Of a stretch of 64,000 bases of DNA, positions 49,788-52,315 are shown piece after piece. Below the pieces are notes generated by a model. That model did not search any database. It was not told the origin of the DNA and was given only the letters and a program-made list of their open reading frames with translations. Position 1 is the first letter of the stretch. Every line of letters starts with the position of its first letter. This DNA is from Qipengyuania vulgaris (GTDB lineage Bacteria; Pseudomonadota; Alphaproteobacteria; Sphingomonadales; Sphingomonadaceae). The stretch is taken from contig CCSI01000002.1 in NCBI GenBank assembly GCA_000756795.1, positions 434,001 to 498,000 of the forward strand. Direction: 5' to 3'. The position numbers were made by a program, and so were the translations under genes.

Positions 49788-51008
49788 ATGCTTTACCACA
49801 TGCACGAGCTGCAGAAGAGCTGGCTGTCGAGTGCCAGCACATGGGCTTCCATCGGGGCGGAGATGCTCTCCAACCCGGCGCTGCCCTTCGGCTACATGGG
49901 CATGGGCCCCATGGCCTCGAGCGCGCTCGAAGTCTTCGCGCACGCCACCGCGACCTATGGCAAGCCCGCATGGGGCATCGAGAGCGTGACGGTTGGCAAA
50001 GAGGCCCATCCGGTGGTCGAGGCCACGGTCGTCAACAAGCCCTTCGGCGATTTGAAGCGTTTCGAGCGCGAAAACCTGCCCGAAGATGCGCCGCGCCTCC
50101 TCATCGTCGCCCCGATGAGCGGCCACTATGCCACGCTGCTTCGCGGCACGGTCGAGCGGATGCTGCAGGAATATGTCGTCTACGTCACCGACTGGGCAGA
50201 TGCGCGCACCGTGCCGCTGCATGAAGGCCAGTTCGACCTCGACGACTACATGGATTACGTCATTGAGTTCCTTGAGCATATCGGCCCCGGCGCGCACGCC
50301 ATGGCGGTGTGCCAGCCTTCGGTCCCTGTCTTTGCCGCCACCGCCATCATGAACCGCGATGGCCACGAGTGCGCGCCCAAGACGCTTACTATGATGGGCG
50401 GACCGATCGACACGCGCTGCTCGCCCACCAGCGTCAACGACCTTGCGATGGAGCGCCCGATCGAGTGGTTCCGCCACAATGTCATCGCCACCGTGCCGAT
50501 GCAGTATCGCGGCGCGGGGCGGCAGGTGTACCCCGGGTTCATGCAGCTCGCCGGCTTCATGAGCATGAATCTCGGCAATCACATGATGAGCCATTACGAG
50601 ATGTTCAAACACCTCACCGTGGGCGACGAGGCGAGTGCGCAGGCGACCAAGGACTTCTACGACGAATACCGCAGCGTCTGCGACATGACGGCCGAATTCT
50701 ACCTGCAGACGGTGCAGGAGGTGTTCCAGGACCACGCCATCCCCAACGGCACCTTTATGCACCGCGGCAAGCGCATCGATTTGGGCGACATCACGACCAC
50801 CGCGCTGCTCGCCATCGAGGGCGAGCGCGACGATATCTCAGGGCTGGGCCAGACCCGCGCCGCGCTGGAGCTGACGCCGAACCTCGATGTGTCGAAAAAG
50901 CGCTACTATATGGCCGAAGGCGCCGGGCATTACGGCATCTTCAACGGCAGCAAATGGCGCGGCAAGATCGCGCCGGTGGTGGAGGAATTCGTTGCCGCGC
51001 ATGGGTGA
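49788..51008 (+). CDS. phaZ: Intracellular polyhydroxyalkanoate depolymerase
   Basis: This 406-residue alpha/beta hydrolase degrades native PHA granules inside the cell. The nucleophile is cysteine C175 in MAVCQPSVP, as in the Ralstonia PhaZ1 type, rather than the serine of lipase boxes. The Asp (EGERDDISG) and His (GAGHYGIFNG) of the triad are present. An AGGGG site precedes ATG 49788. Products would feed the thiolase and acyl-CoA enzymes. A weak terminator follows. Confidence 0.94.
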   Translation: MLYHMHELQKSWLSSASTWASIGAEMLSNPALPFGYMGMGPMASSALEVFAHATATYGKPAWGIESVTVGKEAHPVVEATVVNKPFGDLKRFERENLPEDAPRLLIVAPMSGHYATLLRGTVERMLQEYVVYVTDWADARTVPLHEGQFDLDDYMDYVIEFLEHIGPGAHAMAVCQPSVPVFAATAIMNRDGHECAPKTLTMMGGPIDTRCSPTSVNDLAMERPIEWFRHNVIATVPMQYRGAGRQVYPGFMQLAGFMSMNLGNHMMSHYEMFKHLTVGDEASAQATKDFYDEYRSVCDMTAEFYLQTVQEVFQDHAIPNGTFMHRGKRIDLGDITTTALLAIEGERDDISGLGQTRAALELTPNLDVSKKRYYMAEGAGHYGIFNGSKWRGKIAPVVEEFVAAHG

Positions 51009-51035
51009 GGGGCGTGACTTAGACACCCCAATTTT
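51009..51035 (+). terminator. Weak terminator after phaZ
   Basis: GGGG and GT (51009-51015) pair with AC and CCCC (51023-51029) with one mismatch, followed by AATTTT (51030-51035). The stem is short, so the call is tentative. Confidence 0.35.
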
Positions 51036-51056
51036 CCTTGCCACACGCTACTACAA

Positions 51057-51085
51057 CCGTTCGGCCTGAGCCTGTCGAAGGCCAG
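51057..51085 (+). repeat. REP-like repeat, left copy
   Basis: It reads CCGTT, then CGGCCT, loop GAGCCTGTCGA, then AGGCCAG. The stem GGCCT/AGGCC has five pairs. The sequence type is common in sphingomonad intergenic regions (from memory, not searched). It lies 21 nt before the GIY-YIG start. Confidence 0.85.
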
Positions 51086-51106
51086 TCCTGACGGGTAGCG
51101 AAAAAA

Positions 51107-51391
51107 ATGCCCTTCCACGCCTACCTCCTGCGCTGCAACGACGGCAGCTACTACACGGGCCACACCGACAATCTCGACCTGCGTATCGCGCAGCATCAAA
51201 CAGGTGCGATAGGTGGATACACCGCCCAGCGATTACCCGTAAGGCTGATCTGGTCCGAAACCTTCGAGACCCGCGAAGAGGCGCTTTCGGCCGAACGTCA
51301 GATCAAGGGCTGGAGCCGCGCCAAGAAACAGGCGCTGATCGACAGTAATTGGGAGCTGGTGTCCGAGCTGGCAAAGAACCGCCAGCGCTAG
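51107..51391 (+). CDS. Small GIY-YIG nuclease-domain protein
   Basis: This 94-residue single-domain protein is of the YhbQ/URI type. The GIY-like strand is AYLLRC (Y6), the YIG-like turn is YYTG (15-18), the catalytic Arg is R26 (LDLRIAQH), His is H30, and the metal-binding Glu is probably E63 (LSAERQIKGW). The C-terminal motif WSRAKKQALI is typical of the family. Such proteins could nick DNA, but cellular roles are unknown. Its start has no clear ribosome site. Perfect inverted repeats enclose it, which suggests it acts on or moves with them. Confidence 0.87.
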   Translation: MPFHAYLLRCNDGSYYTGHTDNLDLRIAQHQTGAIGGYTAQRLPVRLIWSETFETREEALSAERQIKGWSRAKKQALIDSNWELVSELAKNRQR

Positions 51392-51415
51392 GCCTATGCT
51401 TGGCAACCGCTGCGG

Positions 51416-51444
51416 CTGGCCTTCGACAGGCTCAGGCCGAACGG
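51416..51444 (-). repeat. REP-like repeat, right copy
   Basis: It is the exact reverse complement of 51057-51085 over all 29 bases, starting 25 nt after the nuclease stop. Bases just outside and inside the two copies do not match, so the repeat is exactly 29 bp. Confidence 0.85.
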
Positions 51445-51475
51445 AGATGGGGATGCTTGGCTGGGCAAGTATCGC

Positions 51476-52315
51476 TCACCCCAACCGCTCCGCATGCCAT
51501 GCCACATGCTCGGCCATGAAGGTCGAGATGAAGTAGTAGGAATGGTCGTAGCCCTCCTGCATGCGGATTTCGGCGGGGATGCCGGCCTTGGCGCAAGCCA
51601 TCGAGAGGAGGCCGGTCTTGAGCTGCTCTTCGAGGAAGTTGTCAGCCGTGCCCTGGTCCACTAGCAGGTGATCGACCCGCGCGCCGCTATCGATCAGTGC
51701 GACGGCGTCGTGTTGGCTCCAAGCCTCGCGGTCTTCTCCGAGATAGCGTGACAGCGCCTTCTCGCCCCACGGCACCTTGCTCGGCGCGACGATGGGGGCG
51801 AAGGCGCTGACCGATTTGAAGCGGTCGGGTTTACGCAAGCCAATGGTGAGCGCGCCATGGCCTCCCATTGAGTGACCGGTGATGCCCTGGCGCGCCATGT
51901 CGGCGGGGAAGTTCGCCTCGATGAGCGCGGGCAGTTCGTCCTCGATATAGCTGCGCATGCGGTAGTGCTTCGACCACGGCTCCCGTGTCGCATCGACATA
52001 GAAGCCCGCGCCCTTGCCGAAGTCGTATTCCTCGCTCGCATCGGGCACATCGTCACCGCGCGGGCTGGTGTCGGGTGCGACAAAAATCACCCCGTGCTCC
52101 GCGCATGCCGCGCGGTATTCGCCCTTCTCGGTCACATTGGCATGCGTGCAGGTGAGGCCCGAGAGATACCACAGCACCGGCAGCTTCGCGCCCGTTTCGT
52201 GCGGCGGGACATAGACCGAGAAGGTCATCTCGGTCCCCGTCGCTTCCGACTGGTGCGAGAGGACGAACTGGTCGCCGCCAAAGGCCTTGTTCTGCGAGAG
52301 GTAGTCGAGGGTCAT
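51476..52315 (-). CDS. fghA: S-formylglutathione hydrolase
   Basis: This 279-residue serine esterase hydrolyses S-formylglutathione to formate and glutathione, the second step of glutathione-linked formaldehyde oxidation. Nucleophile S149 is in GITGHSMGGHGAL; the triad His is in GYDHSYYF near residue 258, and LSGLTCTHANVTEKG is the family oxyanion region. It ends a four-gene operon that starts with the class III alcohol dehydrogenase. Its start overlaps the stop of the YbaK/ProX gene (ATGA). Confidence 0.96.
   Translation of the reverse strand: MTLDYLSQNKAFGGDQFVLSHQSEATGTEMTFSVYVPPHETGAKLPVLWYLSGLTCTHANVTEKGEYRAACAEHGVIFVAPDTSPRGDDVPDASEEYDFGKGAGFYVDATREPWSKHYRMRSYIEDELPALIEANFPADMARQGITGHSMGGHGALTIGLRKPDRFKSVSAFAPIVAPSKVPWGEKALSRYLGEDREAWSQHDAVALIDSGARVDHLLVDQGTADNFLEEQLKTGLLSMACAKAGIPAEIRMQEGYDHSYYFISTFMAEHVAWHAERLG

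Follow-up and report, generated by a model that had tools for sequence, protein, structure and literature searches.

Small GIY-YIG nuclease genes enclosed by inverted hairpin repeats in Qipengyuania vulgaris and its relatives: a candidate one-gene mobile element

Results

A small GIY-YIG gene between exact inverted repeats

The window, which is the whole 64,000-nt stretch of Qipengyuania vulgaris DNA analyzed here, contains an element that measures 388 bp from head to head (51057..51444, + strand). Its 29-nt left arm (51057..51085, + strand) contains a repeat unit at 51057-51083, in which the head CCGTTCG faces outward and a GCC/GGC stem bears the conserved loop TGAGCCTGTCGAA. The right arm (51416..51444, - strand) is the exact reverse complement of the left arm and also directs its head outward. 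The first-pass annotation described the two arms as exact reverse complements framing nothing but a 94-residue GIY-YIG gene at a spacing of 21-25 nt, and both statements were borne out. The arms are 100% complementary over 29 nt and separated by a gap of 330 nt, and the single ORF between them (51107..51391, + strand) encodes a 94-aa protein, of which the GIY-YIG domain is the sole domain found (Pfam PF01541, E 3e-18); 21 nt separate the left arm from the ATG and 24 nt the stop codon from the right arm. The gene upstream (49788..51008, + strand; 406 aa, PHB depolymerase C-terminal family) and that downstream (51476..52315, - strand; 279 aa, putative esterase family) lie outside the element, and a PHB depolymerase-family gene adjoins an esterase gene in the relatives as well. 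A search of the window for the 25-nt core of the repeat, allowing 3 mismatches at most, gave 2 matches, which are the two arms, and 0 of 100 shuffled sequences gave a match.

Five residues of the 94-aa protein, Y6, Y16, G18, R26, and E63, are invariant in all 34 aligned sequences (the protein itself and 33 relatives). We take Y6, Y16, R26, and E63 to be the catalytic Tyr, Tyr, Arg, and Glu, and the protein carries a GIY-YIG domain with these four residues (PF01541, 3e-18). The AlphaFold2 model had a mean pLDDT of 93.3, and a Foldseek search with it placed two UPF0213 structures at the top, 1zg2 (E 1.1e-6; 42% alignment identity, TM-score 0.55) and 1ywl (E 1.4e-4; 37%, 0.58), both of which were also found by sequence search, followed by Slx1 entries from E 0.0075. 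The predicted fold thus appears nearest to UPF0213 and then, more weakly, to Slx1. A hairpin would be a fitting substrate for an enzyme of this kind, since Slx1 acts on branched DNA. The motif order of the GIY-YIG residues agrees with that in the accessible text of Dunin-Horkawicz (2006), in which stand-alone prokaryotic GIY-YIG proteins are grouped with Slx1 and a link to repeats does not appear. Neither the 94-aa protein nor that of locus L002, a second GIY-YIG gene of this genome, matched NCBIfam, and the matches of two more (L003 and L004) fell far below the cut-offs. None of the four small GIY-YIG proteins of the genome matched PHROGs.

The repeat unit and its predicted hairpin

The repeats around GIY-YIG genes in this and related genomes fall into five families, namely family A (CCGTTCG-stem-TGAGCYTGTCGAA-stem), to which the arms of the 388-bp element belong, and four families starting with CGTC. 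The family labels rest on our own patterns (A, CTGAG...TCGA; B, CCnGCGnAnGCnGG; C, CCGGACTTGATCCGG; D, CTGAACTTGTTTCAG; E, ATTGCGAG), and a locus received a label when one unit was present on each side in either orientation. Family A was analyzed in 153 units (93 distinct), which delimit sharply a unit of 27 nt, CCGTTCG-NNN-TGAGCYTGTCGAA-N'N'N'-C. Because this boundary is sharp, the last two bases of the perfect 29-nt arm are regarded as incidental identity.

The head CCGTTCG and the loop TGAGCYTGTCGAA are conserved in family A, and the loop of 13 nt is closed by a variable stem of 3-4 bp. The three stem bases vary yet are complementary in 131 of the 153 units (shuffled mean 29, maximum 45) and in 73 of the 93 distinct ones. 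This pattern argues that the family A repeat forms a hairpin kept by compensatory stem change. Around A-type genes, 53 units upstream and 50 downstream had the head facing outward, against 33 units in the opposite orientation. At the loci of families B-E, the nearest units were head-out on both sides in 29 of 45; the pattern gave no call on one or both sides of the other 16, two of which had a downstream unit with the head facing inward.

Repeats and GIY-YIG genes across the genome

The genome of the window (G000; 2.86 Mb in 11 contigs) contains 21 exact copies of the 14-nt core TTCGACARGCTCAG (0 for the reversed pattern) and 28 copies with up to one mismatch (5 for the reversed pattern), most of which form inverted pairs about 60 bp apart. 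Among the copies listed for this genome, only two neighboring inverted pairs are separated by 200-1000 bp (326 and 356 bp), and both enclose GIY-YIG genes. Among the matches listed for G000 and for all or part of eight other genomes, four inverted pairs in this size range were recognized by eye (two in G000 and one each in G020 and G036), and all four contain a GIY-YIG match.

PF01541 was detected in five genes of G000, one of which sits in a 778-aa open frame and was taken as UvrC. The remaining four are all located between inverted repeats. Two of them lie in family A repeats, one between family C repeats (CGTCACCCCGGGCTTGACCCGGGGTCC, 34 nt, 97% complementary), and one between family E repeats (CGTCATTGCGAG...CAATCC), of which the arms differ by indels and gave an inverted-repeat score of 12. 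As these four small genes lie in different repeats, the layout is a property of this kind of nuclease rather than of a single repeat. The second A-type gene (L002, 1495-2733; G000:C3, around 144.7 kb) is part of a 412-aa frame that continues through the right repeat into an S4/pseudouridine synthase gene, so that the repeat codes for a linker peptide. In five loci with B- or E-type genes (L155, L164, L167, L168, and L177), a whole repeat pair rather than a single repeat was seen on each side.

Frequency of enclosure by inverted repeats

Among 41 related genomes, the search for PF01541 returned 109 rows, from which we set aside 40 rows in frames of at least 500 aa as presumably UvrC-like (two of these, of 554 and 560 aa, in G005) and retained 68 loci (69 rows, two of them joined in L179; L182 was kept despite its 1060-aa frame). 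A gene was regarded as enclosed if an ungapped inverted repeat with a score of at least 14 was found within 200 bp on each side. By this measure 54 of the 68 small GIY-YIG loci were enclosed (61 at a score of at least 12), in comparison with 0 of 408 random places in the same loci (8 at 12) and 6 of 409 neighboring ORFs (11 at 12); in five of the six enclosed neighbors, one of the arms lies no more than 250 bp from the GIY-YIG match. In five of the 14 loci missed at the higher score (L003, L148, L153, L159, and L172), CGTCATTGCGAG or a closely similar sequence is present in inverted orientation on each side. Chance was rejected as an explanation on the shuffled cores (0/100), the random places (0/408), and the neighboring ORFs (6/409).

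Homologues from named records gave a similar picture. Among the best 80 of 487, 63 were enclosed, and with 150-bp flanks the count was 62 of 80 versus 1 of 400 random places. The enclosed genes came from records including Sphingomonadales, Gallionellaceae, Methylococcales, Methylophilaceae, deltaproteobacterial, and SAR202 (Chloroflexi) ones. Repeats of the CCTCATCCTGAGG type, which may represent another branch of family A, flank a homologue in a Methylobacterium bullatum record (L277).

Of 150 genomes drawn across the phylum, the 29 top-scoring new ones were examined for their best match, which was enclosed in seven cases. These were divided by an HMM that had been built from the first sequence sets; at E 1e-33, a cut chosen after the scores were seen albeit applied to new genomes, 7 of 10 near relatives were enclosed versus 0 of 19 others. 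Enclosure as a trait of all GIY-YIG genes was rejected on the latter count (0/19 outside the repeat-linked clade), and no inverted repeat was found around yazA of Bacillus subtilis (score 8). The first-pass annotation had suggested testing whether GIY-YIG genes of this type are flanked far more often than other genes, which is what the counts above show (63/80 versus 1/400, 0/408, and 6/409). It had also reasoned that the link would be chance if most homologues lacked flanking repeats: the homologues of this type are mostly flanked, but this does not extend to GIY-YIG genes as a whole.

In a Neisseria gonorrhoeae record (L274), a GIY-YIG gene is situated within a series of dRS3-like repeats (11 ATTCCC-N8-GGGAAT units over 3.2 kb). 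On each side the head of the nearest repeat points toward the gene, the reverse of the usual arrangement. This record is 2.17 Mb long and filed as a plasmid.

Correspondence between nuclease clades and repeat families

We examined the phylogeny of 144 proteins (four of the 148 were left out as their sequences contained stops), a quick tree with few columns and several long branches. The 114 proteins labeled A-E required 8 changes of repeat family on this tree, versus a mean of 42.5 and a minimum of 37 in 300 shuffles of the labels. At least two repeat families occur side by side in thirteen genomes. When labels were shuffled only among the genes of one genome (n = 53 genes), by which the host background is removed, the 8 observed changes compared with a mean of 27.0 and a minimum of 19, and 0 of 500 shuffles were as low; the host-genome background was rejected as the cause of the pairing on this result. 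The label shuffles leave some relatedness in place, and the pairing is imperfect (8 changes, with 4 being the least possible). On this tree, each of several repeat families is tied to its own clade of small nuclease. Altogether, the layout, its recurrence, and the nuclease-repeat pairing are strongly supported by these sequence comparisons.

Repeat copy number and the distribution of Y1 transposases

Genomes with an A-type gene were richer in the matching repeat, with 6-56 family A copies in six genomes versus a median of 0 in the 35 others (p = 0.0016, counting G015, in which the repeat is on one side only; p = 0.0018 without it). Family B copies were likewise higher where the matching gene was present (p = 0.0002 with G002, the genome of the B-labeled L182, left out and G029 left in; p = 0.0001 with G002). 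In G029, the B pattern had 202 matches on one strand versus 5 on the other, a pattern more suggestive of a tandem or CRISPR-like array than of REPs. Of the 35 genomes in which no A-type gene was counted, ten have 7-41 orphan A units, namely G004 (41), G030 (23, with a one-sided A locus), G002 (22), G023 (17), G033 (15), G010 (13), G007 (12), G026 (11), G039 (9), and G001 (7), and 68 matches of the B pattern were found in G033, which has no small GIY-YIG gene. The many A or B repeats of G004, G023, and G033, which have no matching GIY-YIG gene, may be orphan populations, may have lost their partner, or may reflect action in trans.

The profile search for the Y1 transposase (PF01797) found no match in 34 of the 41 genomes, among them G000 and the repeat-rich G004, G014, G016, G018, and G020. 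Matches were found in seven genomes, and G022, G026, G030, and G036 among them hold A repeats. Seven of the 12 Y1 loci are full-length, and none of these has an A-D repeat within 400 bp, though two have a single E unit; the other five are cut by contig ends, and two of them hold an A unit somewhere.

Recurrence at unrelated sites

The 388-bp element matches sequences elsewhere in at least seven genomes of the genus with 69-72% identity. Among the matches listed, five of seven begin at 51057, the first base of the head, and the others at 51053 and 51041 (4 and 16 bases outside the left head), while the right end falls at 51444-51453 in six (0-9 bases past the head) and at 51411, short of the head, in the seventh. 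The 39 A-type elements measured are 357-457 bp long (median 376).

Protein pairs with at least 85% identity numbered 34 (including L035/L066, probably one locus from two collections, and L043/L044, which are without repeats). Eighteen of these share both flanks, eight share one side, and eight share none, counts in which short contigs can hide shared flanks. The 18 pairs reflect plain inheritance in place. Seven element pairs were aligned. Three of them (L070/L071, L071/L072, and L067/L121, the last within one genome) begin exactly at the left head, with unrelated sequence flanking the copies, and extend 6 to about 38 bases beyond the right head. L039 and L146, 420 bp each and 89.8% identical, occupy different sites of G026 (an assembly of 430 contigs), and their match starts 22 bases outside the head. 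The match of L109/L136 starts 9 bases outside the head and ends with the gene, and those of L124/L130 and L090/L101 run on the left from the gene start only and then through the right arm. One unit is thus found at unrelated sites and bounded by inverted repeats, with the pairs ending off the heads as exceptions. No target duplication of at least 3 bases was found next to the heads in any of the 39 A-type elements, and the outer flanks display a weak pyrimidine-rich motif only.

Short, REPIN-like repeat pairs were compared with the ends of the gene-bearing elements. Nineteen of 26 pairs fit the head-out pattern (15 from G020, three from G000, and one from G073). At a threshold of at most 1 of 100 shuffles, the inner sequence of these 91-95-bp pairs was shared with the ends of the L002 element in 14 of 19 and with those of the L048 element in 10 of 19; at the same threshold the 388-bp element matched 0 of 19, and at most 5 of 100 shuffles, 2 of 19. 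Sharing of this kind is as expected of internal-deletion derivatives or a shared origin.

Three sites of gene-less pairs were compared with relatives, using only loci with both flanks readable (2, 16, and 12 rows). A 94-bp pair at L009 (about 1492-1585; G000:C1, 742.4 kb) lies inside a gene, which we take to be DnaE-like, and leaves its frame open; the pair is absent in 16 of 16 rows, corresponding to all 15 relative genomes read. The pair at L013 is absent in 12 of 12 relatives, two of which hold other sequence there. For L007, with 2 rows compared, one relative is empty and one has a repeat remnant. As flanks of a few to about twenty bases also differ at the empty sites, the exact insertion event and its product are not readable there. 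A comparison of presence and absence at the site of the 388-bp element, as suggested by the first-pass annotation, bore fruit in part: none of 11 relatives matches the element (the spacer of L211 being only partly covered), but no clean empty site was found, because other sequence occupies the spacer in all eight relatives in which it was read. The content of this spacer (51009-51475), which separates the PHB depolymerase gene from the esterase gene, is variable, and in these eight (L204-L210 and L214) it holds mostly different ORFs.

Discussion

A proposed one-gene mobile element

Taking these observations together, we regard as fairly probable the reading that the nuclease moves the repeats, namely that the 388-bp unit is a one-gene mobile element, in which a Slx1-like GIY-YIG nuclease sits between the inverted hairpins that it recognizes, as in a REPtron. 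We infer the nicking of hairpins and the movement of the element. The GIY-YIG nuclease would recognize its two flanking inverted hairpin repeats and nick or cut the extruded hairpin, either as a single strand at a fork or as a cruciform, beside the conserved head. Host replication and repair would then copy the element to new places with no target duplication, and a gene-less repeat pair could be copied likewise in trans. The enzyme would thereby occupy the position of RAYT/TnpAREP in a REPtron-like unit. The idea that a GIY-YIG nuclease takes the place of RAYT in an element free of a transposase had been raised from the sequence of the window, and it gains support from the match between clade and family within genomes, the recurrence of the unit elsewhere, and the lack of a Y1 match in 34 of 41 genomes including G000. 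Speaking against it are the orphan repeats of ten genomes, the lack of target duplications, the 18 close pairs inherited in place, the lack of short pairs resembling the 388-bp element itself (0/19), and the reversed heads at the Neisseria locus. The four of seven aligned pairs with a match that does not begin at the head also count against it, but they are offset by the boundaries of the matches in the seven genomes of the genus.

Alternative explanations

Homing genes of the free-standing GIY-YIG type are known, and the elements resemble a repeat pair with a gene in the middle. A homing-type parasite may be considered, in which the repeats spread by other means and a free-standing GIY-YIG gene cuts repeat pairs and is copied in by break repair; repeat-bearing genomes without the matching gene (G004, G023, and G033) would then be uninvaded hosts. 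This explanation leaves the spread of repeats unaccounted for in genomes without a Y1 match and is countered by the higher repeat copy number where the gene is present. Besides, ectopic homing should fill many pairs, whereas the GIY-YIG copies are few per family and genome, and the accessible text of Dunin-Horkawicz (2006) reports no GIY-YIG homing enzymes found in Alphaproteobacteria. We consider homing unlikely.

A domesticated role in maintenance or regulation, in which the nuclease trims or resolves its own hairpins and cruciforms, the flanking repeats serve autoregulation, and nothing moves any more, seems improbable to a similar degree. The Slx1-like fold and the 18 of 34 close pairs inherited in place fit such a role. 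So do the small COG2827 genes of Caulobacter, one of which has an SOS box and which are discussed in the part of PMC1839093 available as potentially encoding repair enzymes. Left unexplained are the units at unrelated sites with their ends at the repeat heads, the two near copies in one genome (G026), and the species-specific repeat pairs.

It is very improbable that RAYT/TnpAREP or another known transposase moves the repeats with the GIY-YIG gene as a passenger. The layout is shared by REP/RAYT systems, as far as the accessible text of PMC8266576 describes them, and Y1 matches do occur in seven of the 41 genomes, including the A-repeat holders G022, G026, G030, and G036. On the other hand, a passenger is not expected to match the repeats clade by clade within genomes, and RAYT as the mover was rejected on the absence of Y1 from 34 of 41 genomes by profile search and on the full-length Y1 loci, of which 0 of 7 have A-D repeats within 400 bp. 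Finally, that common repeats happen to adjoin a GIY-YIG gene is hardly conceivable, since the many copies scattered through the genome, which would favor coincidence, are outweighed by the enrichment (54/68 and 63/80 versus 0/408 and 6/409) and pairing tests (8 changes).

Relationship to known repeat systems

The proposed mobile element shares with REPtrons and REPINs the placement of one enzyme gene between inverted headed hairpin repeats and the presence of gene-less repeat pairs elsewhere in the genome, albeit those tested resemble the L002 and L048 elements and not the 388-bp element. According to the accessible text of PMC8266576, REPtrons mostly have a single enzyme copy and many repeats. 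As with RAYT genes, there are few GIY-YIG copies, some of them fixed in place, and numerous short pairs. The enzymes differ, the GIY-YIG nuclease belonging to a protein superfamily unrelated to the HUH/Y1 transposase, and so do the heads (CCGTTCG or CGTC versus GTAG). As the defining enzyme and the GTAG head of REPtrons are both lacking, we do not file the system as a REPtron, though it works like one in the reading that we favor.

The short CGTC REPs are widespread, above all in alphaproteobacteria, and apparently without a dedicated transposase, and CGTC-1 has been equated with Neisseria dRS3, according to the accessible text of Di Nocera (2013; PMC3733652). The CGTC head and a hairpin are present in families B, C, and D, which fit by eye what that text describes, and dRS3-like repeats surround the GIY-YIG gene of N. 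gonorrhoeae. The two accounts differ in that no transposase gene is reported in the accessible text, while the repeats are tied here to GIY-YIG genes. The repeat of the 388-bp element itself does not have the form of CGTC-tagged REPs as given there (CGTC/TGTC/CCTC head, 8-9 bp stem, and 4-5 nt loop).

With UPF0213 and the prokaryotic Slx1-like proteins (1zg2, 1ywl, and yazA), the nuclease shares the minimal GIY-YIG fold, but none of those sampled outside the repeat-linked clade has enclosing repeats (0/19; yazA of B. subtilis, score 8). Free-standing GIY-YIG homing genes and Penelope-like retroelements resemble the present case as GIY-YIG nucleases serving a selfish element; they differ in that 94 aa are too few for an extra DNA-binding or reverse-transcriptase domain, and the element here is bounded by hairpins. 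Short derivatives that share their ends with a gene-bearing element recall MITEs and insertion sequences, from which the present elements are separated by having no transposase gene and no target duplication beside the heads (0/39).

A link between GIY-YIG genes and REPs was not found among the open-access titles and abstract openings listed, a scope that most subscription papers and bioRxiv fall outside. One paper containing both "GIY-YIG" and "repetitive extragenic palindrom" names them separately in its accessible text, and a term search of RepRanger 2025 (PMC12306157) returned no word beginning with GIY or nuclease.

Implications

A broader proposal, to which we give about even chances, is that GIY-YIG proteins are the missing mobilizers of CGTC-tagged REPs and CCGTTCG repeats. 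As minimal Slx1-like nucleases, they would constitute a second, independently evolved class of REP mobilizers, free of a transposase and working by cutting their own hairpins together with host replication, in alpha-, beta-, and gammaproteobacteria, deltaproteobacterial lineages, and Chloroflexi, and the Neisseria dRS3 arrays would be one of their products.

The 388-bp unit seems to represent a small mobile element of a little-known kind, and such elements may explain the spread of bacterial hairpin repeats. If true, the reading that the nuclease moves the repeats would provide a likely role for a set of small GIY-YIG proteins that are so far unassigned and would add a means by which bacterial DNA spreads without a transposase, and the lack of a dedicated transposase for CGTC REPs would become a question testable at the bench with the protein and its own hairpin.
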